Below are positions 32,636-61,215 of a DNA stretch of 64,000 nt, in pieces. This stretch comes from Azohydromonas caseinilytica (GTDB taxonomy: Bacteria; Pseudomonadota; Gammaproteobacteria; Burkholderiales; Burkholderiaceae_C): NCBI RefSeq assembly GCF_012927045.1, contig NZ_JABBFW010000019.1:1-64000 (forward strand). The letters run 5' to 3'. The stretch's first letter is position 1; every line of letters begins with the position of its first letter. Under the pieces are notes generated by a model that saw only the letters and a list, made by a program, of their open reading frames with translations, was not told the origin of the DNA and ran no database searches. The translations under genes were made by a program, and so were the position numbers.

Positions 32636-34618
32636 GTGGCTGAAGATAGCGTCGTTCTGGAGTCGAGCGTCCAGCAGCTCAATGCGCGGCGGCGCCGCGC
32701 GGTGGAGCTGCGCCTGGAGGGCCGCTCGCTGCAGCAGATCCGGGCCGAAACCGGCCTGAGCGCGCCGACCGTCATTGCCGCGCACAAGGCTTTCCTGGCC
32801 GGCGGCTGGAGCGCGGTGGCGGTGCGCGGGCGCGGGCGCCAGCAGGGCGAAGGTCGGGCCCTGAGCGCGGCGCAGGAGCAGGCGCTGCGCCGCCTGGTGC
32901 TGACGCAGCCGCCCGAGGCCAGCGCGCCGGGCACGCCGCTGTGGCAGCGCGAGGCGCTGGGGCGCTGGGTGCAGCAGGAGCTGGGCGTGGCGCTGGGCGA
33001 GCGCACCGTCACGCGCTACCTGGAGCGCTGGGGCCTGCGCCTGTGCCCGCTGCAGGACGCGGCCGACACGCCGGCCACGCAGCAATGGCTGCAAGAAACA
33101 TTGCCGCAGCGGGTGCGCCAGGCGCGGCAGCAGCATGCGGCCCTGTACTGGTGCGGCGAGCTGCGCGTGGGCGAGGCCGGCGCTGCGCCGTCGCGGCTGC
33201 TGGTGGCGCTGAGCCTGCGCGGCAGCCTGCTGTGGTTGCCGCTGGCGTCCGGCCAGCCGGGCGCGCAGGCCGACTTCCTGCAGCGGCTGCAGCGCGCCGC
33301 CGGCGGCCCGGTGCTGGCGCTGATGCATGGCCTGGACGCCGACAGCCCCGCCACCGCGGCGTTGCGCGAGCAACTGCGGCCGCTGGGCATCACGCTGCAC
33401 GCCTGCCCCGTGGCGCTGCGCCGGGTGACGGCCGCCGCGCCAGTGGCTTCCGCGCCGCCGGCGCCGCTGCGCAGCGCGGCACCGCGGCCGGCGGCGCAGC
33501 CCGGCGTGCCGCCGGCGCCGCGCGCCCTGCCCCCCGCGCCGCCGCCGGCCATCCTCAGCGCGCCCGCGTCGGCCGCCAAGGCCGCCGCCCGCGCGCCCGC
33601 TCCCTGGCGGCCCGCCACGCCGGCGGCGGCCGCCCCGTTTCCGAGTTCGAAGCCGACTTCATCGGCCGCGCGCGCCGCGGCCGCCGTTTTCCCCTCCCCC
33701 AAGAGAGAGCAGCCCGCCATGAAACTGACCCATTTGCAACGCCTGGAGGCAGAGAGCATCCACATCATGCGCGAGGTGGTCGCCGAGGCCGACAAGCCCG
33801 TGATGCTGTACTCCATCGGCAAGGACAGCGCGGTGATGCTGCACCTGGCCAAGAAGGCCTTCTATCCGGCGCCCCCGCCCTTCCCGCTGCTGCACGTGGA
33901 CACCACCTGGAAGTTCCGCGACATGTACGCCATGCGCGAGCGCATGGCGCGCGAGCTGGGCATGGAGCTGCTCGTCTACCAGAACCCCGAGGCCAAGGCG
34001 CTGGGCATCAACCCCTTCGACCACGGCTCGCAGATCCACACCGACATGTGGAAGACGCAGGGCCTGAAGCAGGCGCTGGACCATTACGGCTTCGACGCGG
34101 CCTTCGGCGGCGCGCGCCGCGACGAGGAGAAATCGCGCGCCAAGGAGCGCATCTTCAGCTTCCGCACCGCGCAGCACCGCTGGGACCCGAAGAACCAGCG
34201 CCCCGAGCTGTGGAAGCTCTACAACGCGCGCAAGCACAAGGGCGAGTCGATCCGTGTGTTCCCGCTGTCGAACTGGACCGAGCTCGACATCTGGCAGTAC
34301 ATCTACCTGGAGAACGTGCCCATCGTGCCGCTGTACCTGGCCAAGGAGCGCCCGGTGGTGGAGCGCGACGGCACGCTGATCATGGTGGACGACGAGCGCT
34401 TCCCGCTGCGCCCCGGCGAGATGCCGATGATGCGCAAGGTGCGCTTCCGCACGCTGGGCTGCTACCCGCTCACGGGCGGCTTCGAGTCCGAGGCCGACAC
34501 GCTGCCGGCCATCATCCAGGAGATGCTGCTGGCGCGCACCTCCGAGCGCCAGGGCCGCATGATCGACCACGACGCCGCCGCGTCCATGGAGAAGAAGAAG
34601 CAGGAGGGCTACTTCTGA
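32636..34618 (+). CDS. continuous frame: inactive IS630-transposase-like HTH protein joined to CysD
   Basis: One open frame of 660 codons beginning with GTG. Residues ~16-150 resemble the two helix-turn-helix units of IS630-family transposases ([20 protein letters not shown], then [20 protein letters not shown]). Residues ~165-260 resemble the DDE domain, but two expected catalytic aspartates look lost: YWCGELRV stands where D-E is usual, and [12 protein letters not shown] where LDNHR-like sequence is usual. A ~95-residue Pro/Ala linker leads to a complete CysD that has its own ATG at 33719. Either a true fusion is made, or an upstream protein frame simply lacks its stop and CysD starts internally. 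No stop codon separates the two. The ribosome site before 32636 is poor. Confidence 0.5.
33719..34618 (+). CDS. cysD: sulfate adenylyltransferase subunit 2
   Basis: CysD, with CysN, adenylates sulfate to APS. The 299 residues from the ATG at 33719 cover the whole family from [14 protein letters not shown]. The PP-loop SIGKDS sits at 32-37, [17 protein letters not shown] follows near 140, and the C-terminus is the usual KKKQEGYF. Purine-rich AAGAGAGAG lies 10-20 bp upstream. This internal start is the conventional gene; the same frame is open 361 codons further upstream (see the fusion entry). It is followed by cysNC after 68 bp. Its position beside a sulfotransferase-rich polysaccharide locus suggests that PAPS for sulfation is one product. 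Confidence 0.93.
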
Positions 34619-34686
34619 GCCCGTGCGCCGCGCCCGTTGCGCGCGCACCCGAGCTCCAGCCCCCCGAACTCTCATAAGGACACACC

Positions 34687-36591
34687 ATGGCCCACGTTTC
34701 CGACCTCATCGCCGACGACATCGAGAAGTACCTCAAGCAGCACGAGCACAAGAGCCTGCTGCGCTTCATCACCTGCGGCAGCGTCGATGACGGCAAGAGC
34801 ACCGTCATCGGGCGGCTGCTGTACGAATCGAAGATGCTGTTCGAGGACCAGCTCGCCGCCATCGAGGCCGACTCGCGCAAGTGGGGCACGCAGGGCGGCG
34901 AGATCGACTTCGCGCTGCTGGTGGACGGCCTCGCGGCCGAGCGCGAGCAGGGCATCACCATCGACGTCGCCTACCGCTTCTTCAGCACCGACCGGCGCAA
35001 GTTCATCGTGGCCGACACTCCGGGCCACGAGCAGTACACGCGCAACATGATCACCGGCGCCTCCACCGCCGACGTGGCCGTGATCCTGATCGACGCGCGC
35101 AAGGGCGTGCTCACGCAGACCCGGCGCCACAGCTACCTGGTGAGCCTCATCGGCATCAAGAAGGTGGTGCTGGCCATCAACAAGATGGACCTGGTGGGCT
35201 ACTCCGAGCAGACCTTCCGCGACATCGAGGAGCAGTACCGCGCCTTCGCGCGCCAGATCGGCCTGACCGACATCACCGCCATCCCGCTGTCGGCGCTGCG
35301 CGGCGACAACATGCTGCAGCACAGCGACGCCACGCCCTGGTACCACGGCCCCACGCTGATGGGCTACCTGGAGACGGTGGGGATCGAGGAGCAGGCGCAG
35401 CAGCAGGGCGCCTTCCGGCTGCCGGTGCAGTGGGTCAACCGCCCCAACCTGGACTTCCGCGGCTTCGCCGGCACCATCGCCAGCGGCGTGATCCGCCCGG
35501 ACGACCGCGTGCGCGTGCTGCCTTCGGGCCGCGAGAGCCGCGTGGCGCGCATCGTCACCGCCGACGGCGACCTGGGGCAGGCGGTGGCGGGCCAGTCCAT
35601 CACGCTGACGCTGGCCGACGAGATCGACATCTCGCGCGGCGACGTGATCTGCAAGGCCGAGGCGCCCGCCGAGGTGGCCGACCAGTTCGAGTGCACCATC
35701 GTCTGGATGACCGAGGAGCCGCTGCTGCCCGGGCGCCCCTACCTGCTCAAGCTCGGCACCAGCACCGTCAGCGCCACCATCACCGAGCCCAAGTACAAGG
35801 TCAACGTCAACACGCTGGAGCACCTGGCGGCCAAGAAGCTGGAGCTCAACGAGATCGGCGTGTGCAACCTGGCGCTGGACCGCCCGGTGCCCTTCGACGC
35901 CTACGGCGCCAACCGCGACACGGGTGGTTTCATCCTCATCGACCGCATGACCAACAGCACGGTGGGCGCGGGGATGCTGCACTTCGCGCTGCGCCGCGCG
36001 CACAACATCCACCTGCAGCCGGTGGACGTGAACAAGGAGGCGCGCGCGCTGGCCAAGGGCCAGAAGCCCGCGGTGCTGTGGTTCACGGGCCTGTCGGGCG
36101 CGGGCAAGTCCACCATCGCCAACCTGGTGGAGAAGAAGCTGCACGCCCTGGGGCGCCACACCTACTTGCTCGACGGCGACAACGTGCGCCACGGCCTGAA
36201 CAAGGACCTGGGCTTCACCGAGGCGGACCGCGTGGAGAACATCCGCCGCGTGGCCGAGGTGGCGCGGCTGATGGCCGACGCCGGCCTGATCGTGATGACG
36301 GCCTTCATCTCGCCCTTCCGCGCCGAGCGCGAGCTCGCGCGCAGCCTGCTGGCCGAGGGCGAGTTCATCGAGATCCACGTGGACACGCCGCTGGAAGTGG
36401 CCGAGGAGCGCGACGTCAAGGGCCTCTACCGCAAGGCGCGCCGCGGCGAGCTGCTGAACTTCACCGGCATCGACAGCCCCTACGAGCCGCCCGAGGCGCC
36501 GGAGCTGCGCGTCAACACGCTCGACACCACCGCCGAGCAGGCCGCCGACATCGTCATCGCCAAGCTGCGCGAACTCGGTTTCATTAACTGA
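34687..36591 (+). CDS. cysNC: bifunctional sulfate adenylyltransferase subunit 1 / adenylylsulfate kinase
   Basis: A 634-residue CysN-CysC fusion (NodQ type). The GTPase half has the P-loop GSVDDGKST at 31-39, DTPGH at 110-114 and NKMD at 165-168, then two beta-barrel domains to ~450. The APS-kinase half starts near residue 460, with its P-loop GLSGAGKST at ~468-476 and the [16 protein letters not shown] signature after it. Together with CysD the product takes sulfate to PAPS, the donor used by sulfotransferases. The upstream RBS is weak (AAGGAC). Such fusions are common where PAPS serves sulfation, as in rhizobial Nod-factor synthesis. Confidence 0.96.
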
Positions 36592-36888
36592 CAAATATCC
36601 CGGCCCCGGCCGCCACCCTGGGAAGGGCGCGGCCTTAAAACCTTATCGCGGGGCTGGAAATAAACCTGGGCCGCTGTCGTGGATTCGGCAGCGGCCCAAC
36701 TTCATTGGGCATCACCTTGTCAAGGTTTTTGCTCGGCGTGCCCGCATCCCGCCGCGGCACCAATACTCGCCAAATAAATTAACCAATTACCCCCGCCCTT
36801 GCGTGGAGCGTAATTAAGGGTAAACATGGCTTGCAAAGCTGCGCATGGGCTAAAACACGCCCATACTATTCCTTCCACCGGAAGTACC
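36592..36888. other. intergenic region between cysNC and the sugar-lipid genes
   Basis: 297 bp with no gene. A 9-bp hairpin (GGGCCGCTG at 36668-36676, CAGCGGCCC at 36689-36697) without a T run may end cysNC transcripts. A second inverted repeat, ATGGGC-N8-GCCCAT (36845-36864), lies 24 bp before the next start codon and could be an operator. Base composition falls abruptly here compared with cysNC. Confidence 0.45.
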
Positions 36889-37263
36889 ATGAAGCTCAGC
36901 ACCTTTGCATTGATTCTTTGCGGTGTCCTTCTCAATGCAGCGGCCCAACTGTCATTGAAAGCCGGCACCCGGGTATTGGGTTTCATCGGGTTCGATGGCC
37001 GCCACAGCCCCGTGGAGCTGGCCCTCAGCGTCGGCACGCAGCCCTGGATCATGGCCGGCATGGCCTGTTATGTGGTCAGCCTGGTGCTCTGGATCGCGGC
37101 GCTGTCGCGGGTGGACGTGATGGTGGCTTATCCCATGCTGTCCATCGGTTACGTGGTCAATGCCTTCATCGCCTGGCAATTCATGGGCGAGGCCCTGACG
37201 CCGCATCGGCTCATCGGTATCGGCGTGATCATGGTGGGCGTCATCATTCTTTCACGCGGCTGA
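36889..37263 (+). CDS. small four-helix transporter (EamA/SMR-like, ArnE-type flippase subunit)
   Basis: A 124-residue protein with four predicted membrane helices spanning nearly its full length (about 4-24, 45-65, 72-92 and 99-119). The first helix LILCGVLLNAAAQLSLKAG and the last IGIGVIMVGVIILSRG resemble small drug/metabolite transporter halves such as ArnE, which flips an undecaprenyl-phosphate sugar. Upstream of sugar-lipid genes, a role in moving a lipid-linked sugar across the inner membrane is likely. The ATG at 36889 has GGAAG seven bases before it; a start 21 codons upstream is not supported. Confidence 0.75.
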   Translation: MKLSTFALILCGVLLNAAAQLSLKAGTRVLGFIGFDGRHSPVELALSVGTQPWIMAGMACYVVSLVLWIAALSRVDVMVAYPMLSIGYVVNAFIAWQFMGEALTPHRLIGIGVIMVGVIILSRG

Positions 37264-37273
37264 GGCAGAAAAT

Positions 37274-38221
37274 ATGCGCATTCTACTCACCGGTGCCAAC
37301 GGGTTTCTGGGTGGATATTGCGCCGCCCGGTTGCGAGAGGTCGGCCACCAGGTCACGACCACCGATCTCGCCGGCCCCATGGATTTGCGCGGCGACCTGG
37401 CGGATGCCCATTTCACCCGCCAATTGCCCGTGGTGGACGCGGTGGTGCACGCGGCGGCCGTTCAATATGTATCCCCGAATTTGCCGCTGCTCGGCCGCGT
37501 GGGCTGGTTCAGGCGCAACAATATCGAGGCGACCCAGCGGCTGGTGGACCGTTACCGTGACGAAGACACCCATTTCGTCAATATCGGCACCAGCATGATG
37601 TACGCGCAAAACGGCGCGCCGCAGTACGGCACCGACAGCCTCATGCAGGGTCAGGGCGTCTACAGCCATTCCAAGCTGGCGGCGCAGGGCTTCGTGGAAC
37701 AGGGCATGGCGCGCTGGGCCACGGTGATCCCTTGCATCATCGGCGGCCCCGGGCGCGAAGGGCTGTTCCGCAATTTCGTGCGCGCCATCGCCCGCGGCCG
37801 GCCGGTGCTGGTGCCCGGCCGGGCCGACCATCCCGTGGCCATGGTGCATGTCGAGGACGTGGCACGGCTGGTGGACACCGTGGTGCGGCAACGCGCGCGC
37901 GGCTTCTACAACGCCGCCGCGCCCAGGCCGCTGTCCATCAACGACTGGGTGCGGGAGATCCAGCAGGAAATCAGCGCGCCGCCGGCGCGCATCGTGCACC
38001 TGCCCCTGAAGCCGCTGCAGTGGCTGGCGGCGCTGAGCGGCTGGCGCCTGCTGGCGCGCGAGCAGGTGCTGATGCTGACCTGGCCGCATGTGCTCGATAT
38101 AGACCGCTCCCTGGCCCTGGGCTGGCAGCCCCGCCACGACAACGCCCTCATCGCGCGCCATATCGCGCGCCACATTTACGGCAGCGAGTTTCAGCCTGTC
38201 CGTGCAGGAGCCCGCCATTAA
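37274..38221 (+). CDS. NAD-dependent epimerase/dehydratase (extended SDR)
   Basis: A 315-residue extended short-chain dehydrogenase. The Rossmann motif GANGFLGG is at 7-14, the active-site Y130-x-x-x-K134 (YSHSK) is intact, and a catalytic Ser/Thr region lies before it (NIGTSMMYA). The C-terminal part matches sugar-nucleotide epimerases. Its place between a small flippase gene and a UbiA-like gene suggests epimerisation of a lipid-linked or nucleotide pentose. It is 10 bp after the transporter gene and nearly touches the next one. Confidence 0.88.
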   Translation: MRILLTGANGFLGGYCAARLREVGHQVTTTDLAGPMDLRGDLADAHFTRQLPVVDAVVHAAAVQYVSPNLPLLGRVGWFRRNNIEATQRLVDRYRDEDTHFVNIGTSMMYAQNGAPQYGTDSLMQGQGVYSHSKLAAQGFVEQGMARWATVIPCIIGGPGREGLFRNFVRAIARGRPVLVPGRADHPVAMVHVEDVARLVDTVVRQRARGFYNAAAPRPLSINDWVREIQQEISAPPARIVHLPLKPLQWLAALSGWRLLAREQVLMLTWPHVLDIDRSLALGWQPRHDNALIARHIARHIYGSEFQPVRAGARH

Positions 38222-38228
38222 ATCCGCC

Positions 38229-39689
38229 ATGAATACCGCGGAGGCGGCCGCAGCGCCTTCCCTGCCGCTTTACGTCGATCTCGACGGCACGCTCATCGCC
38301 ACCGACCTGCTGCATGAATCGGTGTTGCGGCTGGTGCGCAGCGACCCGCTGGCCTTGCTGAACCTGCCGCGCTGGCTGTTGCAGGGCAAGGCGCAGCTCA
38401 AGCATGAGATCGCGCAGCGGGTGGAGCTCGACGTCAGCAGCCTGCCCTACCGCGAAGAGGTGCTTGAGCTGATTCGCGAGGCGCGCGCCGAAGGCCGGCG
38501 CGTGGTATTGGCCACGGCCTCCAACCTGAAATTTGCGCAGGCCGTGGCCCAGCACCTCGGCCTGTTCGATGCCGTGCTGGCTTCGGACGGGCACAGCAAC
38601 ATGAGCGGCGCGCGCAAGCTGGCCGCCATTCGTGAAGACGCGCGCGCCCATGGCGATCAATTCGCGTATGTGGGCGACCAGCCCGTGGATTTGCCCATCT
38701 GGCGTGAAACCTCGGAAGCGCTGCTCATCACCCGCTCGGCCGCGCTCGAATCCTCGGCGCGCGCGGTGGCGCCCGTGACCTGCGTCATCCGCCCGCCGCG
38801 TGCCCGGCTGATGGACGTGCTGTACGGGCTGCGGCTGCACCAGTGGCTCAAGAATCTGTTGATCGCCCTGCCCTTGCTGCCGATCCTGCCGTCGGCCTCG
38901 CAATTGGGCACCGCCGCGCTGTTGCACGTGCCGCTGGCCATGCTGGCCTTTTCCCTGATGGCCTCCGCCATTTACGTGGTCAACGACCTGCTGGACCTGG
39001 AGGCGGACCGGCGCCATGTGCGCAAGCGCCACCGTCCTTTTGCCAGCGGGCTGATTTCCATTCCCAGCGCTTTGGGCATGAGCGCCGCCCTGTTCATCGG
39101 TTCGGTGGGGCTGTCGCTGGGCCTGCTGCCCGGGCGATTCACGCTGTGCCTGCTGGTCTACATGGGATTGAGCCTGTCCTATTCGCTGCGGCTCAAACGG
39201 CGGGCGGTGGTGGACGTGTGCGTGCTGGCCCTGCTCTATACCCTGCGCATCGTCGCCGGCGCGATGGCGCTGGGCGTGCCGCTGTCGCTGTGGATGTTCA
39301 GTTTCTCGGTGTTCCTGTTTCTCAGCCTGGCCTTTGCCAAGCGCTACGTCGAAATCGCCATGACGCTGCCCACCGATACCGCGGCCTTGCGCTCGCGCGG
39401 CTACCTGATCGGTGACCAGACCTTCGTCATCGCCGCCGGCGCCGCCGCGGGGCAGCTGGCCGTGGTGGTGCTGCTGCTCTACCTGAACGACCCCCTCACC
39501 GCCCAGCGTTTCAAGCATCCGCAGTACTTGTGGGCCCTGGGCCCGATCCTGCTGTTCTGGCTGCTGCGCCTGTGGCTGAAGGCGAACCGGCGCCGCCTGC
39601 ATGACGACCCGGTGGTGTTCGCGGCGCGGGACTGGGTCAGCCGGGTGTTCGTGCTGGTTGCCATCGGGCTGATCTGGCTCAGCGCCTGA
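38229..39689 (+). CDS. HAD phosphatase-UbiA prenyltransferase fusion (polyprenyl-phosphate phosphoribosyltransferase-like)
   Basis: A 486-residue two-domain protein. Residues ~1-185 are a HAD-type phosphatase (D17-L-D19-G-T-L; GDQPVDLPIW near 150). Residues ~195-486 are a UbiA-type membrane prenyltransferase with about eight helices and the NDLLDLEADRRH motif at ~252-263. UbiA relatives of this type attach 5-phosphoribose to a polyprenyl phosphate, and the HAD domain could remove the 5-phosphate, giving polyprenyl-phospho-ribose. A GTG at 38202 is an alternative start overlapping the previous gene; the ATG at 38229 is chosen because it starts just after that gene's stop. Confidence 0.85.
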   Translation: MNTAEAAAAPSLPLYVDLDGTLIATDLLHESVLRLVRSDPLALLNLPRWLLQGKAQLKHEIAQRVELDVSSLPYREEVLELIREARAEGRRVVLATASNLKFAQAVAQHLGLFDAVLASDGHSNMSGARKLAAIREDARAHGDQFAYVGDQPVDLPIWRETSEALLITRSAALESSARAVAPVTCVIRPPRARLMDVLYGLRLHQWLKNLLIALPLLPILPSASQLGTAALLHVPLAMLAFSLMASAIYVVNDLLDLEADRRHVRKRHRPFASGLISIPSALGMSAALFIGSVGLSLGLLPGRFTLCLLVYMGLSLSYSLRLKRRAVVDVCVLALLYTLRIVAGAMALGVPLSLWMFSFSVFLFLSLAFAKRYVEIAMTLPTDTAALRSRGYLIGDQTFVIAAGAAAGQLAVVVLLLYLNDPLTAQRFKHPQYLWALGPILLFWLLRLWLKANRRRLHDDPVVFAARDWVSRVFVLVAIGLIWLSA

Positions 39690-39709
39690 GCTTTGCATTG
39701 GCTCCGGGC

Positions 39710-41387: not shown

Positions 41388-41843
41388 TCAAACCAATTCC
41401 GCCGCCGAAATATCTTCCTTGGCGTCCACCACCTTCTTGCCGGCGATCCGGACCACGCGGGCCGGAATGCCGACCACGGTGGCGTCGTCCGGCACATCCT
41501 TGACGACCACCGCATTGGCGCCGATGCGCACCCGGTTGCCGATGCGGATCGCGCCGATGATCTTGGCGCCGGCGCCAATTTGCACGTCATCGCCGATGAC
41601 CGCCCCGCCCCCTTTGCCGCCGGCAATGGTGACCTGATGCCGGATCTTGCAGCGCTGGCCCACTTTCACCCGCTTCCCCATCATGATTCCCTGGCGGTGG
41701 CCGAAGGACACACCCGGCCCGATGTCGGCCTGGTAGGGAATGGAGGCATGGAAGAAGAACCGAATCATCAATTCGATCAGCTTGGGCAAAACAGGAATCT
41801 TTTTCAGGTAAAGGTAGTGCGACAAGTAGTAGAGCTTTTCCAT
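41388..41843 (-). CDS. hexapeptide-repeat acetyltransferase (CysE/WcaB-like)
   Basis: A 151-residue left-handed beta-helix acyltransferase. After an N-terminal helical part (1-40) the chain shows repeating [LIV]-G-x-x units (VSFGHRQGIMMGKRVKVGQ, VIGDDVQIGAGAKIIGAIRIGN) and the closing VPDDATVVGIPARVV typical of serine-acetyltransferase-like sugar O-acetyltransferases. It probably acetylates the polysaccharide or a precursor. It is last in the minus-strand eps run, 50 bp after a sulfotransferase gene. Confidence 0.88.
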   Translation of the reverse strand: MEKLYYLSHYLYLKKIPVLPKLIELMIRFFFHASIPYQADIGPGVSFGHRQGIMMGKRVKVGQRCKIRHQVTIAGGKGGGAVIGDDVQIGAGAKIIGAIRIGNRVRIGANAVVVKDVPDDATVVGIPARVVRIAGKKVVDAKEDISAAELV

Positions 41844-41893
41844 AGCGCACTCCTGAATTCACGAAACCTTGGCATCCATGGCCATATTCTCGG

Positions 41894-42853: not shown

Positions 42854-42903
42854 GAACGCTCCATGCAAGGTCCAGCCAGGAGGGGCCGCGCGGCCCGGAA
42901 GTC

Positions 42904-48322: not shown

Positions 48323-48376
48323 CTGCGCTCCTGCTGACTGCTGTTGCCGCGGTGGCCGAGGGCCTTGGCCACCACC

Positions 48377-52437: not shown

Positions 52438-52466
52438 GCTGTACTGCCGCACCGCCCGAAGGCGGC

Positions 52467-53408: not shown

Positions 53409-54826
53409 TAGACCGCCCTTCCGTGATAACCGACCAGACGCGTTTGCATGGAGCCCGGACGCCCGACGCGGAACCAATTCTTCCGGTCGGGTTTGGGGAG
53501 CACACCAATCACCTGCATATCGACCAGCTGAACGATGTCGCTGGGAGAGCGCACACGGCGATTCATGAATTCCAGAACCAGGGCAGCGCCGACGGCCAGC
53601 AGGGAGCCCACGAAAGTCGCGACGATGACGTTCAGGGTGATTTGCGGCGACGAGGGCGCGATCGGTTCGGTGGCCTTGGAAAACTCGATCAGGTTCGTCA
53701 TGGTGGCCTGGCTCTCGATGCTGGTGGTGTTGAGCCGCGCCAGCACGGTGTCGTAGGCCTTTTGCGCGTTGTCCACGTCGCGCAGCAGCGAGGCCATGCC
53801 GTCGCGCTGTGCCTTGAGCTTGAGCACGCGCTCGCGCTGGCTTTCCAGCGCCGTGCGGATCTCGGCCTCGCGGGACTGGTTGATGCGGTTGCTGACGCCG
53901 ACGCCGCCGGCGACGCGGGCCACCTCGTTGTCGAGGCGGGTGCGCAAGCTGGCGATGGCGGCCTTGGCTTCCCGGACCTGCGGATGCGCATCGCCCAGGC
54001 GGGCGCTGAGCTGGCTCAGGCTGGCCTCCTGCCGCGACAGCTCGCCGCGCAGCTGGTTCACCACGCCGCTGTTGAGCGTGTCCTGCAGGCGGTCGCTGGC
54101 CCCGTTGGCCGCGGCCTGGCGGCTGCGGGATTCGGCAGCCAGCGCCTGCACCGCCACCAGCTGCGAGGACAGCTCGTTCAGGCGCGCCGTCTCGATGTCG
54201 ATGCGCTCGTCCGTGGCCACGATGCCGTTGTCCTGCTGGTACTTGGACAGGGCCATCTGCGCCTTGTCCAGCTGCTGCCGCAGGCTCTTGGCGCGCTCAT
54301 CGAAGAACGCGGCCGACTGCCGAGCCGGATCGACCCGCAGCTCCAGCGCCGTTTCCAGGTAGGCCTGGACGAAGGCATTGGCCGTCGCGGCGGCCAGCTT
54401 GGGGTCGGGCGACTTGTAGTTGACGGCGATGATGTTGGACTGGCTGGGCACCACCTGCAGGTTGATCTGCAGCATGTCGCCCAGCCAGGCCTCGAAGGCG
54501 CCCACGCCCTGGGTCGCCTCCTGCCATTGCGCGCGCAAGTCGGCGTTCTCGTTCAGGCGCATCAGGCGCACCGCCCGCTGCGCCACCCGGTCGCTGCTGA
54601 GGATCTCGACCTGGCTGGTGATGACCTGCGGCACGAGCTGGCTCGACAGGCCGATGCCCGCGATGGGGTCCGGCACCGCCACCTGCACCAGCACCGAGGC
54701 GGAGCCGGTGTAGCTCTTGGGCAGCAGCAGGCTGATGCCGATGGTGGTGAGCACCGTGGCCAGCAGCACGGCCAGCACGACTTTCCAGCGTGCCAGCAGG
54801 ATGGCCAGGAACTGGGCGATGGACAT
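53408..54826 (-). CDS. epsF: chain length determinant protein EpsF (Wzz family)
   Basis: A 472-residue polysaccharide co-polymerase. Two membrane helices (about 15-35 and 395-418) flank a large periplasmic region with coiled-coil segments (~180-260 and ~310-370) and the GNVR-type loop before the second helix. The protein sets chain length together with EpsG, whose gene it overlaps by one base. It follows epsE after 9 bp. Confidence 0.94.
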   Translation of the reverse strand: MSIAQFLAILLARWKVVLAVLLATVLTTIGISLLLPKSYTGSASVLVQVAVPDPIAGIGLSSQLVPQVITSQVEILSSDRVAQRAVRLMRLNENADLRAQWQEATQGVGAFEAWLGDMLQINLQVVPSQSNIIAVNYKSPDPKLAAATANAFVQAYLETALELRVDPARQSAAFFDERAKSLRQQLDKAQMALSKYQQDNGIVATDERIDIETARLNELSSQLVAVQALAAESRSRQAAANGASDRLQDTLNSGVVNQLRGELSRQEASLSQLSARLGDAHPQVREAKAAIASLRTRLDNEVARVAGGVGVSNRINQSREAEIRTALESQRERVLKLKAQRDGMASLLRDVDNAQKAYDTVLARLNTTSIESQATMTNLIEFSKATEPIAPSSPQITLNVIVATFVGSLLAVGAALVLEFMNRRVRSPSDIVQLVDMQVIGVLPKPDRKNWFRVGRPGSMQTRLVGYHGRAV

Positions 54827-54835
54827 GCTCGATCC

Positions 54836-55720
54836 TTAGAAAATGCTTTCGCGGACGTACACGACGTCCCCATCGCGCAACGGTTCGCTCATCGACGGCT
54901 GCAGCACCTCGACATGCCCGTCAGACGCCTTGCGATGCACCTTCAGGCCGCGATCGGTGCCGCGGGCCGTCAACCCGCCCCCGGCCGCTAGGCCCTGCAG
55001 CAGCGTCATGCCCCGCTCCACGCGCAGCGGCCCCGGTCGCTGGACCTCGCCGTAGATGTAGGCCGTGGGCGCCCGGTCCACGTACACCACGTCGCCGTCC
55101 TGAACCCGCGTGTCGAAGGCGCTGTCGAGCTGCCCGGCGGCCAAGGCGTCGGACAGGCTGATCTGGGTCTTGAAGGGACGGCCATCGCGCACGCCCACGA
55201 GCGTGACCACGTCGGAGCCGGACTCCGCCACCCCGCCGGCCACGGCCAGCAGGTCGGTCAAGCGCATCTGCGCCAGCTCCAGCGGATAGCGGCCGGGCCG
55301 GTTGACGTGGCCGAGCACCGCCGCCTGGTTGCCCCGGACCTGCATGATCAGGATGGACACCTGGGGCTGCTTCACGAAATTGCCGCTGCTCAGCGCATTG
55401 GCAATGCGTTGTTCGGCCTGGGGCACGGTCAGGCCGCCAATCTTCACGGCGCCGATCAGGGGATAGGTCACCATCCCCGTGTCCGTGATGCGCGTTTCCA
55501 GCGCCAGGTCGGGATTCTGGAACACGGAAATCTTGATGCCGTCGCCGGGGCCGAGGCGGTAATCCGCGACATTGGCCGCCGAGGACGGCGCGGCGGCCAT
55601 GGCCGCCGGCGTCAGGGCGGCCTGCCGGGTATTTGATTTGTCGCCCTGCGCCTGGGCGGTCGCGCACGCCGCCAAAATGAGAGCCAGCCCGATTCGCGTG
55701 CTGCGGTACGAAATATTCAC
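54836..55720 (-). CDS. epsE: polysaccharide export protein EpsE (Wza-like, SLBB domains)
   Basis: A 294-residue outer-membrane export channel subunit. A signal peptide with lipobox-like LILAAC (Cys ~19) precedes the Poly_export domain (DYRLGPGDGIKISVFQNPDL near 55) and two SLBB domains (~135-210 and ~215-290). It would form the pore for the finished polymer. It overlaps epsD by 4 bp (ATGA). Confidence 0.94.
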   Translation of the reverse strand: MNISYRSTRIGLALILAACATAQAQGDKSNTRQAALTPAAMAAAPSSAANVADYRLGPGDGIKISVFQNPDLALETRITDTGMVTYPLIGAVKIGGLTVPQAEQRIANALSSGNFVKQPQVSILIMQVRGNQAAVLGHVNRPGRYPLELAQMRLTDLLAVAGGVAESGSDVVTLVGVRDGRPFKTQISLSDALAAGQLDSAFDTRVQDGDVVYVDRAPTAYIYGEVQRPGPLRVERGMTLLQGLAAGGGLTARGTDRGLKVHRKASDGHVEVLQPSMSEPLRDGDVVYVRESIF

Positions 55721-56691
55721 TTGTTTACCCCCAATCCATGGTCAATTGACGAGGCTCCCGGCCCTGCCGCCGGGACGTTCGACGTGTCGGTTTCACCGGG
55801 CCCGTTCGCCGCTTGGTTGCCCCCCGTGTTTTGCGGTTTTTCAGCAAACTTGCCGACCAGCTCGATCTTGGCCGCGCTGCGCAAGTCCTTGATATCCCGC
55901 TCGACCAGCTCGCGCTTGCGCTGGGTGCTCAGATATTGATCAATTGCCGGCCGGGCCTTTTCCAGCGACACCGGCTGGCTCTGCGAGCCGGCAAGCGCGA
56001 TGACGATGGCGCCATTCGCGGTGGGTATCAGACGGGCCTGCCCGTCATTCATGCGGGCAAATTCATCGAGCTGTTCCAGCGGCAATTGCTCGGCGGCACG
56101 GACGGCTCGGTTTTGCACGAACCGGATGTCGCTGGATTGCAGGTATTTCGTGAATTCGCCCAGGTCCTTGGCCGCGGACAGCCGCTTGCCCACCTCGGGC
56201 AAACGATCCTGCCCGACCTGGATATTGATTTCGTGCAGTTGGTAAATGCGGCGCTCGCTGAACAGCGCGGGCTTGTCCTTGTAGAACTTCTCGACTTCCG
56301 CCGCCGTCGGCTTGGCGGCGGCCTCGGCGACGCGCTCCAGGTAGGCCCGGGCCAGCACGTCGCGCTTGGCGGCCTCCAGGGCCTGCAGCACGGCGGGCTG
56401 CCGGTCGATCTTGAGGTCCAGCGCCTTCTGCAGCGCCAGCTCCTGGTCGATCAGGCGATCGAGCACCTGCCGGCTGGCCGCCTCCACCGAGTCCTGCCGC
56501 ACGTCCTGCTGCTGCAGCACGTAGTTGAGCTGGTGGACGGAAATCTCCTTGTCATTCACCCGGGCTGCGACCTGCGTTGCCGGCTTGTCCTTTTTGTCGC
56601 CGCAGGCCGCCAAAAGCCCAAGCAGCAACGGCGCCATCACCACGGCGCGCAGCAGATTTTGACCAACAGCCCGGGGCATTAACGGCGACAT
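55717..56691 (-). CDS. epsD: EpsD family peptidyl-prolyl cis-trans isomerase lipoprotein
   Basis: A 324-residue lipoprotein (signal peptide, lipobox LLAACG, Cys ~30). A SurA/parvulin-like N-terminal helical region (VNDKEISVHQLNYVLQQQDV) precedes a parvulin-type rotamase domain (~150-260). It belongs to the EpsD family found with XrtB exosortase systems and probably folds export or PEP-CTERM proteins. It is the first gene of the long minus-strand operon; AGGAGG lies 8 bp before the ATG at 56691. A longer frame upstream is unsupported. Confidence 0.92.
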   Translation of the reverse strand: MSPLMPRAVGQNLLRAVVMAPLLLGLLAACGDKKDKPATQVAARVNDKEISVHQLNYVLQQQDVRQDSVEAASRQVLDRLIDQELALQKALDLKIDRQPAVLQALEAAKRDVLARAYLERVAEAAAKPTAAEVEKFYKDKPALFSERRIYQLHEINIQVGQDRLPEVGKRLSAAKDLGEFTKYLQSSDIRFVQNRAVRAAEQLPLEQLDEFARMNDGQARLIPTANGAIVIALAGSQSQPVSLEKARPAIDQYLSTQRKRELVERDIKDLRSAAKIELVGKFAEKPQNTGGNQAANGPGETDTSNVPAAGPGASSIDHGLGVNK

Positions 56692-57083
56692 GGGTCGTGT
56701 CCTCCTGATAGCTATTTGCACGAACCGCCAGCCCGAATTTGACGAGTCAACGTGAGAACCTGCAGCTGGATGCACTCGATGGGGCGAAGTAAACCCTTTT
56801 CAACAATCCAGCGGCAGCCCCGTGAACACGGGTACTAACGAGAACAGGGGTTTCCCGTAGAAATAGTCCACCCTCACTTCGGTAGCGAATCAGGCATCCC
56901 GGAATGCTAAGGTTTATCGGGACCCGCGAAATACGCATGAAAATGTGCATGAGGTAAATCTTTGAAACATCACTTTTCCATGCTCAGAGTTTTGTGCTTT
57001 CGCATGTCTCGGCAGCATCCCTGTTATAGCAATGGGTACTGCAAAAAGTTCTGCTGCTTTCACCTTTTTGCCGGAGCCCTCCC
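56692..57083. promoter_or_regulatory. divergent control region of the eps operon and the right-hand glycosyltransferase gene
   Basis: 392 bp without a gene. It must hold promoters in both directions. A palindrome CCCGTG-AA-CACGGG lies at 56819-56832, 128 bp before epsD, and is a candidate operator. No consensus sigma-70 or sigma-54 promoter stands out. The DNA is clearly richer in A/T than the flanking genes. Confidence 0.5.
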
Positions 57084-58178
57084 GTGAAAGTCTTGCATGT
57101 CATCAACGGGGAATATTACGCAGGGGCCGAAAAGGTTCAGGACCTGTTGGCCATGGAATTGACGGCGCTGGGCCACGAGGTGAGTTTCGTGTGCTTCAAG
57201 CCGGACAAATTTCCCGCGCTGCGTACGAGCCGCCATATTTGCCTGCACTCCATGCCCATGCGGCACCGTTTTGATTTGGGCTGCGCCCGGCAGGTGGCGG
57301 CGCTGGTGCGCCAGGGCGGTTTCAGGCTGCTGCACACGCATTCGCCGCGGGGCGCGATGGTAGGCCGGATGGTGAGCACGCTGACAGGCGTGCCGATGGT
57401 CCACCATGTCCACAGCCCGGCGGCGCGCGACACGGAAACGCCCCTGATGAACCGCATCAATTGCGTGGTCGAGCGGCTGAGCGCCTCGTCCATCGAGGCG
57501 CTGATCCCGGTGTCGCGCAGCCTGGAGCGCTACCTGGTCGATCAGGGATTCGCGCGCCAGCGCATCTTCACGGTCCCCAATGGCGTGCCGACGCCGGGGC
57601 CGCTGCCTTCCCGCGACAAACCGACCGCGCCCTGGCGTATCGGCGCGGTGGCGCTGTTCAGGCCGCGCAAGGGCATCGAGATATTGCTGCGCGCCGCGGC
57701 TCAGTTATTGCAGCAGGGCCGGCCGTTGCGGGTCGTGGCCGTGGGAGGTTTCGAAACACCGGCGTACGAGCAGGAAATTCGCGCGCTCTGCCGGAGCCTG
57801 GGTATTTCCGATCATGTGGACTGGCTGGGTTTTACCCGGGACGTCAATGGCGCCCTGTCCCGGCTCGACGTGATGGTATTGCCCAGCCTTTATGGCGAAG
57901 GCATGCCCATGGCGGTATTGGAAGCCATGGCCGTGGGCGTGCCGGTGGTGGCCTCCGATGTGGAAGGTATTCCCGAGGTCCTGGAGCATGGCCGCACCGG
58001 CCTGGTCGTGCCGTCCGGCAATGCGACCGCCCTGGCCATGGAATTGGCCGCGCTGATGGATGGGCGCCATGACTGGGCCCGCATCCGGCAGGACGCCTAC
58101 CGCGTGCAATGCGAGCGTTATTCCTCGGCAAGCATGGCGCGCGCCGTCTCCGATATTTATGCCCATGTGCTTTCCTGA
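57084..58178 (+). CDS. GT4-family glycosyltransferase
   Basis: A 364-residue GT-B enzyme starting VLHVINGEYYAGAEKVQDLL, with the donor-site signature PSLYGEGMPMAVLEAMAVG (E-x7-E around residues 275-285) and the usual close GIPEVLEHGRTGLVV. It probably adds a sugar to the lipid-linked repeat unit. It heads a plus-strand set with a dehydrogenase and an Alg14/13-type enzyme, and is divergent from epsD. Confidence 0.93.
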   Translation: MKVLHVINGEYYAGAEKVQDLLAMELTALGHEVSFVCFKPDKFPALRTSRHICLHSMPMRHRFDLGCARQVAALVRQGGFRLLHTHSPRGAMVGRMVSTLTGVPMVHHVHSPAARDTETPLMNRINCVVERLSASSIEALIPVSRSLERYLVDQGFARQRIFTVPNGVPTPGPLPSRDKPTAPWRIGAVALFRPRKGIEILLRAAAQLLQQGRPLRVVAVGGFETPAYEQEIRALCRSLGISDHVDWLGFTRDVNGALSRLDVMVLPSLYGEGMPMAVLEAMAVGVPVVASDVEGIPEVLEHGRTGLVVPSGNATALAMELAALMDGRHDWARIRQDAYRVQCERYSSASMARAVSDIYAHVLS

Positions 58179-58217
58179 ATTCGGGGCGCATGCCTTTTTG
58201 CATTTTTGGAACCTGCG

Positions 58218-59315
58218 ATGATCAAAACTGCGGTAGTGGGCCTGGGCAAGATGGGGCTGTCTCATCTGGCCATCGTGCGTGCGCATCCCGATATAGAGCT
58301 GGTGGCCGGATGTGATTCATCCGGCTATTTGACGGATGTGCTGTCCACCTATTCCGGCCTGAAATGCCATGCCGATTTCGACCGGCTGCTGGCGGAGGAG
58401 CAGCTGGACGCGGTGGTGATCGCCACGCCCTCCCGCTCCCATGCCGCGATGGTGACGAAGGCGCTGGAGCGCGGGCTGCACGTGTTCTGCGAGAAGCCCT
58501 TCGTGCTCGACCCCGCCGATGGCGTGCGCCTGGTGGAGCTGGCGCAGCAGAAGCGCGTGGTCAACCAAGTGGGCTATCACTACCGCTTCGTCGGCGCCTT
58601 CCAGGAGGCGGCGCGCATCGTGCGCAGCGGCGCGCTGGGTGAGGTGCACCATGTGCGCGCCGAGGCCTACGGGCCGGTGGTGCTGCGTCCCAGCGGCTCC
58701 ACTTGGCGCTCGACCAAGGTGGAAGGCGGCGGCGCGCTCTACGACTACGCCTGCCACGCGCTGGACCTGCTGAACTACGTGGCCGGCAAGCCCTCCGGCG
58801 TCCAGGGCGTGGTGCGGCACAACGTGTTCTCGCGCGACGTGGACGACGAGGTGTACGCGCTGTTCCGCTATCCCGGCGGCGCCAGCGCCCAGCTCAGCGT
58901 CAACTGGAGCGACGACAGCCACCGCAAGATGTCCACGTCCATCACGGTCTGGGGCACGCGCGGGCGCCTCACCGCGGACCGGCAGGAATGCCAGCTGTTC
59001 CTGCGCCAGAGCCACGACGCCCTGCCCGGCGTGCCCAAGGGCTGGTCGGTGCGCTACACCACCGACCTCACCCAGGAGGTCTGGTATTACCTGCGCGGCG
59101 AGGAGTATTCGGCGCAGATCGATTACTTCGTGCAAAGCATCAGGCAGGGCCGCACCGACGGCGAAAACACCTTCCGCTCCGCGCTGGAAACCGACCAGCT
59201 GGTAGCGATGCTGCTGGAGAGCGAAGCCGGGGCGCCGCAGCGCGCGTACGAGCCGGCGGCCGTGCCGGAGCGGCGCGGCGGGCTGTGGTCGCGCCTGATC
59301 GGGGAACGGCCGTGA
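58218..59315 (+). CDS. Gfo/Idh/MocA-family oxidoreductase
   Basis: A 365-residue NAD(P)-dependent sugar dehydrogenase. The Rossmann motif GLGKMG is at ~8-13, EKP is at ~93-95 in HVFCEKPF, and GYHYRF follows near 120. It likely makes a modified nucleotide sugar for the polysaccharide. The first ~60 codons use more A/T than the rest, which is strongly GC-rich. The ATG at 58218 is taken because the Rossmann motif begins at once. Confidence 0.9.
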   Translation: MIKTAVVGLGKMGLSHLAIVRAHPDIELVAGCDSSGYLTDVLSTYSGLKCHADFDRLLAEEQLDAVVIATPSRSHAAMVTKALERGLHVFCEKPFVLDPADGVRLVELAQQKRVVNQVGYHYRFVGAFQEAARIVRSGALGEVHHVRAEAYGPVVLRPSGSTWRSTKVEGGGALYDYACHALDLLNYVAGKPSGVQGVVRHNVFSRDVDDEVYALFRYPGGASAQLSVNWSDDSHRKMSTSITVWGTRGRLTADRQECQLFLRQSHDALPGVPKGWSVRYTTDLTQEVWYYLRGEEYSAQIDYFVQSIRQGRTDGENTFRSALETDQLVAMLLESEAGAPQRAYEPAAVPERRGGLWSRLIGERP

Positions 59316-59396
59316 TGGCCGGGCGCCTTTCCGATTCGCAGGCCTTCGGCCTCGAATTTCGCCTTTGCCTTTAACGCCTTGCCGGGGTCAGCTTTC

Positions 59397-60266
59397 ATGG
59401 ATCGAGTGCTTTTCGGGGATAACCAATTTTTCGGCGTGAACCACATGTCCGAGGAAAAGGCGCGGGCGCAGGCCATGCGCTTTCAGGACAACGCCGCCAT
59501 CATCAAGGTCTTGGATGCCGCCTACCAGGAGGGCATTCGCACTTTCATGTGCACCACGCATGACCGGGTGGCCGAGATTTGCGATCACTTTCGCACGCAT
59601 CGCGACAAGTATCCGGATTACACCTTCTACCCTTGCATGCCCTATGCACACAAGTATGCGAATGCCGTGACCGAATACGGGATGATCGAGGCGCTGCGGC
59701 GTTTTTTGCCCGATGAAAATTCACTGGGCGCCATGCTGAAAGGCGGCATGGCGCTGGCCAACAAGGATATCGATAAAATCCTGCAATTGCTGGTCGATGC
59801 CGAAATGAAAATGTTCCGCGGCCTGCCCACGCCGGTCATTTTCATTCAAAACGTCATCACCGACCTGCTGCTGGGCCTGAATCTCAAGCCGGTGCTGCGC
59901 ATGTTCCATGACCATGTGCGCAAGGCCTATGGCGCCGAGCCGGGTTTCATCACCATGAATTTGCCCAAGCTGCTCGACGTGCTGGACGAATTGGGTATCG
60001 AAAACCCGATCGTCTGCGCCAACATCAACAAGATCGGTTTTCGCATGTGCGGCGGCATCGCGGCTTACGAGGATGCGATCGCGAAAAGGCGCTTCCGGCC
60101 CGTGGCGATGTCGGTCCTGGCCTCGGGGGCGATCGCGCCCAAGGAAGCCATCGACTATGTCTGCCGCCAGCCGCGCATCGAGTCCATCGTTTTCGGCGCT
60201 TCGTCGCAGGCCAATATCCGGCACACCAAGCAGCTGATCGATGAATTGAGCTTGGCACCGCAATGA
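59397..60266 (+). CDS. TIM-barrel-like protein of unknown function (distant aldo/keto-reductase resemblance)
   Basis: A 289-residue protein not assigned to a family with confidence. It starts DRVLFGDNQFFGVNHMSEEKA, and its C-terminus (SVLASGAIAPKEAIDYVCRQ, then SIVFGASSQANIRHTKQLID) has the rhythm of an aldo/keto reductase or related TIM barrel. The catalytic Asp-Tyr-Lys-His set of AKRs is not evident. A Met-rich middle section and several His are notable. It lies between the dehydrogenase and pssD-like genes, overlapping the latter by 4 bp, so a sugar-related task is likely. Codon use has lower GC than its neighbours. Confidence 0.75.
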   Translation: MDRVLFGDNQFFGVNHMSEEKARAQAMRFQDNAAIIKVLDAAYQEGIRTFMCTTHDRVAEICDHFRTHRDKYPDYTFYPCMPYAHKYANAVTEYGMIEALRRFLPDENSLGAMLKGGMALANKDIDKILQLLVDAEMKMFRGLPTPVIFIQNVITDLLLGLNLKPVLRMFHDHVRKAYGAEPGFITMNLPKLLDVLDELGIENPIVCANINKIGFRMCGGIAAYEDAIAKRRFRPVAMSVLASGAIAPKEAIDYVCRQPRIESIVFGASSQANIRHTKQLIDELSLAPQ

Positions 60267-60727
60267 AACTCGTCGTCGGCGCCTCCGCAGGCGGGCATGC
60301 CAACGAGCTGCAGATCCTGCTGCGCAACGCCCGCGGCCTGTGGCCCGCGGAACCGGCGGCCTACATCACCACCATGGCGATCGCGGCCTCCGGCTTCGAC
60401 AGCGGCGGCCGCCCGGTGCACGTCATCGGCGAGTGCGATCGCCGCAAGCCCTTGCAGGCCGTGGGGGTGCTGGGGCGCACGCTGTGGCTGGCCTGGCGCG
60501 AGCGGCCGGACGTGGTCGTGACCACGGGCTCGATGCCGCTGGCCCTGTTCTGCATCTGGGCCAAGCTGCTGGGCGCCAAGGTGGTGTGGATCGACAGCGT
60601 GGCCCAGATCGAAAAGCTCTCGGTCAGCGGGCGGCTGATGCGCCGCGTGGCCGACCTGTGCCTGGCGCAGTGGCCGGCCGTCGCGGCGCGCTACCGGGGC
60701 GTCGAATACGCGGGGGAGGTGCTGTGA
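60263..60727 (+). CDS. Alg14/PssD-like glycosyltransferase membrane subunit
   Basis: A 154-residue protein of the Alg14 family, the membrane-anchoring half of a split GT28-type glycosyltransferase. ASAGGHANELQILL (~7-20) replaces the usual GSGGHxxE start, and TTGSMPLALFCIWAKLLGAKVVWIDS is typical of the family. It pairs with the Alg13-like protein encoded immediately downstream, with a GTGA overlap. Confidence 0.88.
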   Translation: MKLVVGASAGGHANELQILLRNARGLWPAEPAAYITTMAIAASGFDSGGRPVHVIGECDRRKPLQAVGVLGRTLWLAWRERPDVVVTTGSMPLALFCIWAKLLGAKVVWIDSVAQIEKLSVSGRLMRRVADLCLAQWPAVAARYRGVEYAGEVL

Positions 60728-61215
60728 TCCTGCTCACCGTCGGCAGCATGTTTCCCTTCGACCGGCTGGTGCGCGAGGTGGACGCCCTGGTGGCGGCCGG
60801 GCGCATCGGCGAGGAGGTGGTAGCGCAGATCGGCGACGGCCAATACGAGCCGTGCCACATGCCTTTCCACCGCTTCCTGTCCCGGCTGGAGTTCGAGGCG
60901 CTGCTCGGCCAGGCTTCGATGCTGGTCAGCCACGCGGGCGCCGGCACCATCGCCATGGCGCTGCAGCACCACAAGCGGTTGCTAGTGGTGCCGCGGCTGG
61001 CACGCTTTGGCGAGCATGTGAACGACCACCAGATCGCCACGGCGCGCCGCTTCGAGGAGCTGCAGCACGTGCTGGTGGCCTACGAGCTGGAGCAGCTGCC
61101 CGAGCGGCTGCAGGCGCTGCGGCAGTTCGAGCCGCGCCGGCGCGAGGCCTCGCCGCAGCGGCTGGCCGAGCGCATCGGCCAGTTCCTGGCTACCGAGTGC
61201 GGCCCGCGCGGCTGA
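60724..61215 (+). CDS. Alg13/PssE-like glycosyltransferase catalytic subunit
   Basis: A 163-residue protein starting with GTG inside the stop of the previous gene. It begins ILLTVGSMFPFDRLVREVD and contains SHAGAGTIAMALQHHKRLLVVPR, the GT28 donor-site segment of Alg13/PssE. With the Alg14-like protein it would form one glycosyltransferase that adds the second sugar to a lipid-linked primer. It is the last gene of the polysaccharide locus. Confidence 0.88.
   Translation: MILLTVGSMFPFDRLVREVDALVAAGRIGEEVVAQIGDGQYEPCHMPFHRFLSRLEFEALLGQASMLVSHAGAGTIAMALQHHKRLLVVPRLARFGEHVNDHQIATARRFEELQHVLVAYELEQLPERLQALRQFEPRRREASPQRLAERIGQFLATECGPRG

Follow-up and report, generated by a model that had tools for sequence, protein, structure and literature searches.

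The DNA analysed here, called the window throughout, makes up the first 64 kb of a contig of 101 kb (NZ_JABBFW010000019.1) in the 6.65-Mb genome of Azohydromonas caseinilytica. It contains a probable locus for a sulfated exopolysaccharide, in which five predicted sulfotransferase genes, named STa to STe, are part of an exopolysaccharide (eps) operon with exosortase B (XrtB). The operon is a run of 15 genes on the minus strand (41388-56775), in which neighbours overlap slightly or lie no more than about 55 bp apart. By ascending coordinate, the run encodes an acetyltransferase, STa, STb, a Wzx-like protein, a GT4 glycosyltransferase, STc, STd, STe, a Wzy-like protein, EpsI, XrtB, EpsG, EpsF, EpsE and EpsD. 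In the same cluster, on the opposite strand, lie cysD and cysNC, the genes for the supply of 3'-phosphoadenosine 5'-phosphosulfate (PAPS). An earlier, sequence-only reading of the window had named these genes at the same places, with five sulfotransferases of at least three subfamilies and with cysD and cysNC about 5 kb from the operon. The profile matches bear this out, and the gap is 4.8 kb. The order and content of the gene block are common to four Azohydromonas species, namely that of the window, A. lata, A. australica and A. aeria.

All five sulfotransferases, encoded on the minus strand, score above the Pfam cut-offs. STa (41894-42853) belongs to PF00685 and is similar to N-deacetylase/N-sulfotransferases and 3-O-sulfotransferases. 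STb (42904-43884, similar to tyrosyl-protein sulfotransferases), STc (46667-47599) and STe (48377-49306) belong to PF13469, and STd (47609-48322) to PF03567, a family that includes carbohydrate sulfotransferases. In a whole-genome search, these five proteins are the only matches to the three families (E<=0.001). The R-x7-S motif, which forms the 3'-phosphate-binding site of PAPS-dependent sulfotransferases, is retained in all five enzymes in every sequence compared (four to seven per enzyme, including those of the window). The 5'-phosphosulfate-binding loop of such enzymes carries a basic residue, which is present in STa, STc, STd and STe of the window's species; one distant STc homologue (locus L163) has a histidine at this position. 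The expectation of PAPS-binding residues in all five proteins thus holds for the first motif, and for every protein except STb in the second.

We compared the enzymes with solved structures. By sequence, STa matches the bacterial sulfotransferase 3rnl (E 1e-19) as well as heparan N- and 3-O-sulfotransferases, and STc gives a weak match of the CurM type. The predicted structure of STc, obtained from seven sequences with a predicted local distance difference test score (pLDDT) of 87.7, matches the folds of CurM, Ols and tyrosyl-protein sulfotransferases bound to 3'-phosphoadenosine 5'-phosphate (PAP), with template-modelling (TM) scores of about 0.5 and root-mean-square deviations of 8-12. A crude hydropathy scan found no hydrophobic segment in any of the five proteins, and their pairwise ratios of nonsynonymous to synonymous substitutions (dN/dS), calculated against two species, are 0.11-0.34. 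By these measures the enzymes appear to be soluble and to evolve under purifying selection. As a separate observation, a CxC...C motif in STc (C46, C48, C55) is invariant in seven sequences and is a possible metal site.

The remainder of the operon encodes an export system. Four of its proteins exceed the cut-offs of their specific profiles: EpsI of the B type (50846-51568, score 285 against a cut-off of 220), XrtB (51565-52470, TIGR03113, 373.7 against 275), the chain-length protein EpsF (53408-54826, TIGR03017, 491 against 423) and the peptidyl-prolyl isomerase EpsD (55717-56775, 235 against 109). EpsE (54836-55720, Poly_export/SLBB) is identified by a profile match, and both an outer-membrane export protein and a chain-length protein are therefore present. 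The catalytic residues of exosortases are a cysteine, an arginine and a histidine, and C201, R247 and H268 of XrtB are invariant in 13 sequences. The EpsG-like tyrosine kinase (52467-53408) scores 276, below its equivalog cut-off of 314. Its N-terminus contains an MshE-type cyclic di-GMP motif (NF053729, 39.2 against 38), a sequence feature which suggests that export may be under cyclic di-GMP control.

The flippase and the polymerase are less well defined. Neither the Wzx-like protein (43881-45443) nor the Wzy-like polymerase or ligase (49269-50849) has a Pfam match of its own. One of six Wzx-like homologues matches Polysacc_synt (E 1.6e-7), and one of seven Wzy-like homologues matches Wzy_C weakly (E 0.016). 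Crude hydropathy counts give ten membrane segments for the Wzx-like and twelve for the Wzy-like protein of the window, and the Wzx-like profile matches no solved structure. The two other genes of the run, for a GT4 glycosyltransferase (45443-46663) and a hexapeptide acetyltransferase (41388-41843), are assigned by profile matches. As had been noted before, there is no clear initiating phosphoglycosyltransferase in the window; PF02397, the only initiating family searched, has five matches in the genome, all of them on other contigs than that of the window.

Sulfate activation is encoded on the plus strand. CysD, the small subunit of ATP sulfurylase (33719-34618, 550 against a cut-off of 413), forms the C-terminal 299 residues of a 660-residue frame (32636-34618), and it is followed by CysNC (34687-36591, 1082 against 715), the large subunit fused to a kinase of adenosine 5'-phosphosulfate (APS). 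The genome has two PF01507 matches, CysD in the window and CysH on contig C23. It has one match to the APS kinase family PF01583, which is the kinase of cysNC, and none to Sat (PF01747). The cysD and cysNC genes of the cluster are thus not an extra copy, and a second cysDN set, looked for elsewhere in the genome, was not found.

CysH passes the APS reductase model TIGR02055 narrowly (236.2 against 235.3) and fails the PAPS reductase model TIGR02057 (125.6 against 254.2); it also passes the broad model NF002537, named phosphoadenylyl-sulfate reductase (256 against 154). Two cysteine pairs are typical of APS reductases, and the CysH translation has a CC and a CxxC pair. Within 3.5 kb around cysH there is an adjoining uroporphyrinogen methyltransferase-like gene and no cysDN; the other neighbours, judged by eye, we take to be a sulfite reductase and a DUF934 protein. 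As a single ATP sulfurylase was found in the genome, sulfur assimilation must also use cysD and cysNC. Because CysH scores as an APS reductase, the APS kinase and its product PAPS have no evident assimilatory use. The proposal that cysD and cysNC are dedicated to the polymer therefore does not stand; the ATP sulfurylase is shared with assimilation, and it is PAPS itself that is probably dedicated to sulfotransfer.

To place the locus among its relatives, we compared the neighbourhoods of XrtB genes in named genomes, using the best 80 of at least 579 confirmed loci. At least 8 kb of downstream sequence is available for 64 of the 80 and less than 8 kb for the other 16, and the sulfotransferase profiles were built from the genes of the window and near relatives, so that distant families may be missed. 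Sulfotransferases were found in the flank of 7 of the 80 loci: three Azohydromonas loci with five each, L111 and L112 with two each, and L113 and L163 with four each. A full-length APS kinase is encoded in all seven genomes. Among five nearer non-bearers chosen by hand, only L115 has one, and L115 lies itself inside a clade of bearers. Among the named genomes compared, the XrtB of the window is closest, at 78-80% identity, to those of A. lata, A. australica and A. aeria. In a quick XrtB tree with 81 rows and many weak branches, the sulfotransferase label changes 4 times, compared with 7.8 times when shuffled, and none of 500 shufflings gave a value as low. The bearers fall into the Azohydromonas clade, a clade of L111, L112, L113 and L115 (the last without a sulfotransferase in its flank), and L163.

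The most complete parallel outside Azohydromonas is L113. A single strand there carries a cysD with an N-terminal helix-turn-helix (HTH) region, cysNC, an SLC13-like permease gene (PF03600, PF00939), epsD, epsE, epsF, epsG, xrtB and epsI. It continues with a wzy-like gene, a pyruvyl transferase gene, two sulfotransferase genes, a GT2 gene, a wzx-like gene and two more sulfotransferase genes. The L163 genome has cysD and cysNC on a contig (L222) that also encodes two sulfotransferases and a PssDE-like pair.

Co-occurrence was examined in 200 related genomes drawn from the family, including the window's own. PF13469 was the sulfotransferase family searched, and a strong APS kinase match was defined as one above 150 bits; 18 first-look candidates were scored per genome, so weak matches are incompletely covered. 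PF13469 is found in 36 genomes, a strong APS kinase in 43 (one of these matches, in G048, is truncated by a contig end) and XrtB above the cut-off in 59. The kinase is present in 33 of the 36 genomes with PF13469 and in 10 of the 164 without it. PF13469 alone thus occurs in 3 genomes, two of which are only 76-78% complete, the kinase alone in 10, and neither in 154. The Fisher test, which ignores kinship, gives p = 2e-25, and 1.5e-23 when the three genomes of the same genus are left out. The association of XrtB with PF13469 is weaker (20/36 versus 39/164, p = 4e-4). Of the 33 genomes with both, 18 have kinase and sulfotransferase within 20 kb of each other, 7 have them farther apart on a shared contig, and 8 have them on separate contigs. 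The ten kinase-only genomes contain 12 kinase regions. Sulfotransferase-like frames lie beside the kinase in G185, G116 and one of the two regions of G081, and G010 has one weak sulfotransferase match (16 bits) near it; in the remaining ones the profiles derived from the window find no sulfotransferase near the kinase. Within the family, a strong APS kinase match is a usable pointer to PF13469, which it accompanies in 33 of 43 genomes.

The frame of CysD has an unusual beginning. Its N-terminal extension (32636-33718, plus strand, 361 residues) consists of a winged HTH, a region similar to IS630 transposases and a linker rich in proline and alanine. PF13592 (HTH_33) matches above its cut-off, and the IS630 match is below (52.8 bits against 100). 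In a survey of loci picked for cysNC or XrtB, matches to the extension always share one frame with CysD, in the window and nine other genomes, all of which also have cysNC (A. lata, A. australica, L113/L221, L237, L238 and L241-L244). The fusion thus recurs in genera other than Azohydromonas. HTH profiles were found in nine of the ten fused frames given to Pfam, and other CysD frames examined, such as those of L216, L218, L224, L239, L245, L246 and L248, have no match to the extension. Outside Azohydromonas, cysQ, the gene for PAP phosphatase, is the divergent neighbour of the fused cysD in six of seven loci (L221, L237, L238, L242, L243 and L244; 269-283 bits against 228.8), and none was seen there in L241. 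The product may be either the fused protein or a CysD made by restart of translation at its own methionine. The extension is possibly a domesticated transposase regulator. We found no paper with a relevant title on a CysD-HTH fusion in the open-access literature.

Divergent from cysD lies a gene for a 190-residue PEP-CTERM protein (31442-32014, minus strand; TIGR02595, 17.1 bits against 16), a candidate exosortase substrate that the sequence-only reading had overlooked. It has a VPEP...ARRMRQRR C-terminus and, by eye, a signal-like N-terminal segment. A. lata (L100) and A. australica (L223) have orthologues in the corresponding position; the A. aeria contig ends before this position, so the comparison covers three species. 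PEP-CTERM-like C-termini are also found near the L112 and L113 loci. Elsewhere the genome has 25 further PEP-CTERM matches at E<=0.001, a threshold that misses the window's own gene, and its contig C12 carries another exosortase-like gene. The suggested link between the polymer and PEP-CTERM sorting is therefore seen as physical proximity only.

Between the PEP-CTERM gene and cysD, just upstream of the fused frame, there is a perfect inverted repeat, CATTAA-ATGC-TTAATG (32596-32611), a candidate operator. It occurs once in the window, and A. lata and A. australica have it in the equivalent position, so that all three species with this flank carry it. The divergent eps promoter region (56776-57083) has its own conserved blocks; one of them (56824-56844) is present in all four Azohydromonas species and nowhere else in the 2.87 Mb compared. 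No conserved motif is common to the eps and cysD promoters, and in the same 2.87 Mb the palindrome is found upstream of cysD only. An RpoN-type eps promoter was also considered and rejected, as the pattern (at most one mismatch) has two sites in the window, both at about 20.6 kb, which is below chance.

Further genes that may belong to the pathway flank the operon, all on the plus strand. The interval between cysNC and the operon encodes a small transporter with four transmembrane segments, similar to ArnE/ArnF (36826-37263, below equivalog cut-offs), an NAD-dependent epimerase/dehydratase (37274-38221, profile match), a HAD phosphatase-UbiA prenyltransferase fusion similar to enzymes of lipid-linked pentose synthesis (38202-39689; NF006088, 575 against 351) and a polytopic membrane protein (39698-41353), weakly assigned as a putative GT-C glycosyltransferase. 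These genes (36826-41353) look like a lipid-linked pentose cassette, with a UbiA part similar to decaprenyl-phosphate phosphoribosyltransferase, and the cassette is retained in the same interval in all four Azohydromonas species; none was seen in the examined stretches of the other sulfotransferase-bearing loci.

On the other side of the eps promoter, profile matches identify a second GT4 glycosyltransferase (57084-58178) and a GFO/IDH/MocA sugar dehydrogenase (58206-59315). The latter is paired with a protein without a Pfam or NCBIfam match (59379-60266). In another genus the same pair follows cysD-cysNC with one gene intervening (L244:11563-13570), which hints that the two proteins belong to a sulfated-sugar pathway. 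The last two genes encode a PssD-like glycosyltransferase subunit (60263-60727, 78.5, below the cut-off of 110) and a catalytic subunit of the PssDE/WelK type, glucuronosyltransferase-like (60724-61215; NF041548, 121.6, just above 120). Both match the WelK model below its cut-off. This model is named glucuronosyltransferase, so an acidic backbone is plausible.

According to our reading, to which we assign a probability of about 0.8, the product of the locus is an exopolysaccharide of the Wzx/Wzy type, and its repeat unit receives sulfate in the cytoplasm. That the polymer is sulfated had already been proposed from the sequence, and it is well supported by the gene content, the synteny in four species, the PAPS motifs, the confinement of the genome's sulfotransferases to the operon and the co-occurrence with APS kinase. 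From these genes, domains, motifs and comparisons we infer the substrates, the order of steps and the sulfate on the product. CysD and CysNC in the cytoplasm would convert sulfate and ATP to APS and then PAPS; APS would enter assimilation through the APS-reductase-type CysH, and PAPS would be used for sulfotransfer. The repeat unit would probably be begun by a phosphoglycosyltransferase encoded elsewhere, and the GT4 and PssDE enzymes would add further sugars, glucuronate possibly among them. Its lipid-linked sugars would be sulfated at the cytoplasmic face, presumably before the Wzx step, by as many as five soluble sulfotransferases that depend on PAPS. The Wzx-like protein would flip the unit, the Wzy-like protein would polymerise it, and EpsF, EpsG, EpsE and EpsD would govern length and export. 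XrtB and EpsI would be part of the same envelope system, perhaps acting on the neighbouring PEP-CTERM protein.

Several results weigh against this reading. No sulfotransferase was detected in the examined flank of 73 of the 80 XrtB loci, and therefore sulfation does not belong to XrtB systems in general. The cysDNC genes are on a different contig from XrtB in L111 and L163, and 32 kb from it on the same contig in L112. The Wzx and Wzy labels are weak, given the poor profile matches. Sequence comparison relates STd to no solved structure, and its predicted structure (pLDDT 41, four sequences) is unusable. The 5' loop of STb reads NGSGTT, with no basic residue in any of five sequences, and STb is therefore the enzyme whose activity is least sure; judging from the loop, it may be a natural variant or have an altered activity. 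A single operator for eps and cysD was rejected, as each promoter has its own conserved motif, and regulation by one shared operator is thus not supported. Two further points, the likeness of some enzymes to tyrosyl-protein sulfotransferases and the sole ATP sulfurylase, bear on particular alternatives.

STb and STe match tyrosyl-protein sulfotransferases (and CurM-type domains) by sequence, and the fold of STc resembles them too. Some or all of the enzymes, STb and STe above all, could accordingly have a protein or small molecule as their substrate, with the polymer unsulfated or lightly sulfated. Tyrosines of a secreted or PEP-CTERM protein would be an example, as a PEP-CTERM gene adjoins cysD and RaxST of Xanthomonas is, in the literature excerpts available, a bacterial tyrosine sulfotransferase. 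However, STa resembles heparan sulfotransferases, STd falls in PF03567, and all five genes are located inside the polysaccharide operon, from wzy to the acetyltransferase gene. As the five proteins have no hydrophobic segments, exported proteins would need to be sulfated before export, and five enzymes for one protein would be surprising; we consider a protein target unlikely. A different acceptor, such as lipopolysaccharide, O-antigen or a glycolipid, is suggested by the gene at 49269, which could encode a ligase (its weak match, Wzy_C, is described as O-antigen ligase), and by the ArnE/F-like, UbiA and possible GT-C genes, since genes of this kind serve to decorate glycans that are lipid-linked or located in the outer membrane. 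On the other hand, EpsE, EpsF and the EpsG-like kinase form a set for polymer export, and the accessible part of PMC1569441 describes PEP-CTERM/EpsH systems as exopolysaccharide-associated, which makes another glycan distinctly unlikely as the acceptor.

The position of cysD and cysNC could reflect assimilation alone, since no other ATP sulfurylase was found in the genome; their proximity to the sulfotransferases would then be incidental, which the separate promoter motifs would also fit. The sequence-only reading had itself counted a sole sulfate-activation set without co-regulation as evidence against sulfation. The set is indeed the only one and the promoters have no conserved motif in common, but in our view this does not refute sulfation, because CysH scores as an APS reductase, and the APS kinase is nevertheless kept. 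Moreover, 154 of the 164 family genomes without PF13469 have no strong APS kinase match, the linkage recurs in the gene order of L113 and on the L222 contig, and cysQ lies beside the fused cysD in six of the seven loci outside Azohydromonas. An incidental neighbourhood is thus highly improbable, and a locus for a sulfated exopolysaccharide remains the preferred explanation.

A wider picture can be drawn, which we regard as doubtful. The locus might be a self-contained betaproteobacterial module for a sulfated matrix, where five enzymes would set a sulfation pattern, an XrtB-sorted PEP-CTERM protein would bind or anchor the polymer, by analogy with animal matrix proteins and sulfated glycans, and the HTH-CysD protein would sense sulfate activation and control the PAPS genes via CATTAA-N4-TTAATG. 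If the preferred explanation is true, a betaproteobacterial genus with five sulfotransferases in a conserved operon would clearly widen the known bacterial range of sulfated polysaccharides. The five predicted enzymes might also supply bacterial sulfotransferases with which to make heparin-like polymers. Azohydromonas is non-marine as a genus, and A. lata is an industrial polyester producer; named strains exist, so the claim of sulfation is open to direct test.

Sulfate decoration of polysaccharides is common in animals and algae and rarely documented in bacteria. The order EpsD-E-F-G-XrtB-EpsI is that of betaproteobacterial methanolan-type eps loci, and the locus described here shares it; most XrtB loci examined have no sulfotransferase. 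A PAPS supply of the CysD/CysNC type is coupled to a sulfotransferase in NodPQ/NodH and RaxPQ/RaxST. Unlike the five enzymes for a polymer here, NodH and RaxST are single sulfotransferases whose substrate is a lipo-oligosaccharide or a peptide. Our searches of the open-access literature gave no report of such a locus among the matches listed, and those for Azohydromonas and polysaccharide none by title among the matches listed. Exosortase and sulfotransferase occur together, as far as the partial texts go, only in the paper on synechan and in a survey of Acetobacteraceae. The available portion of a review of marine exopolysaccharides (PMC4189415) covers sulfate-bearing marine polymers and no betaproteobacterial locus.

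The synechan (xss) cluster of Synechocystis PCC 6803 (PMC8205485) is similar in having Wzx/Wzy exopolysaccharide genes with distinct sulfotransferase subfamilies inside the cluster, according to the sections available. A sulfated product is reported there. The cluster differs in having two sulfotransferases instead of five, in its cyanobacterial host and in its own regulators XssQRS, and neither an exosortase nor PAPS is mentioned in the available main text. In the same sections the authors state that sulfated bacterial polysaccharides were known from cyanobacteria only, with none reported in other bacteria, and that they knew of no sulfotransferase genes in other bacterial exopolysaccharide clusters. 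A second paper likewise restricts sulfated polysaccharides among bacteria to cyanobacteria.

Another comparison is the capsule locus of the marine Vibrio sp. KMM 8419 (PMC11641403), where, in the text at hand, cysD, cysN and cysC lie with sulfotransferases in a polysaccharide cluster, and the combination of PAPS genes and sulfotransferases in one cluster, which the window also shows, is called a hallmark of a sulfated polysaccharide. Its sulfated product was studied by nuclear magnetic resonance. The cysDNC genes are second copies there and the sole set found here, and export is by an ATP-binding cassette (ABC) transporter (Kps), with no exosortase mentioned in that text. The sulfated capsule locus of Cobetia marina KMM 1449, likewise marine (PMC11766843), in the excerpt available, has a cysNC fusion, cysD, cysQ, a sulfate permease and a sulfotransferase together, which is near the gene set of L113; unlike here, it is an ABC transporter capsule with KpsSC, and the excerpt does not mention an exosortase. 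The wps-1 cluster of Actinoplanes missouriensis (PMC13390465) resembles the locus in combining Wzx/Wzy with two predicted sulfotransferases of different families, and sulfation is predicted in the part of the paper available; it belongs to a Gram-positive actinomycete, and PAPS and cysN are unmentioned in that part. Because of the Vibrio, Cobetia and Actinoplanes reports, the principle of a sulfated-polysaccharide cluster with PAPS genes is already known. The present case differs in its betaproteobacterial setting, in a non-marine genus, and in its exosortase-B chassis; its five sulfotransferases come from three families, and beside them lies the one ATP sulfurylase that the genome searches found.

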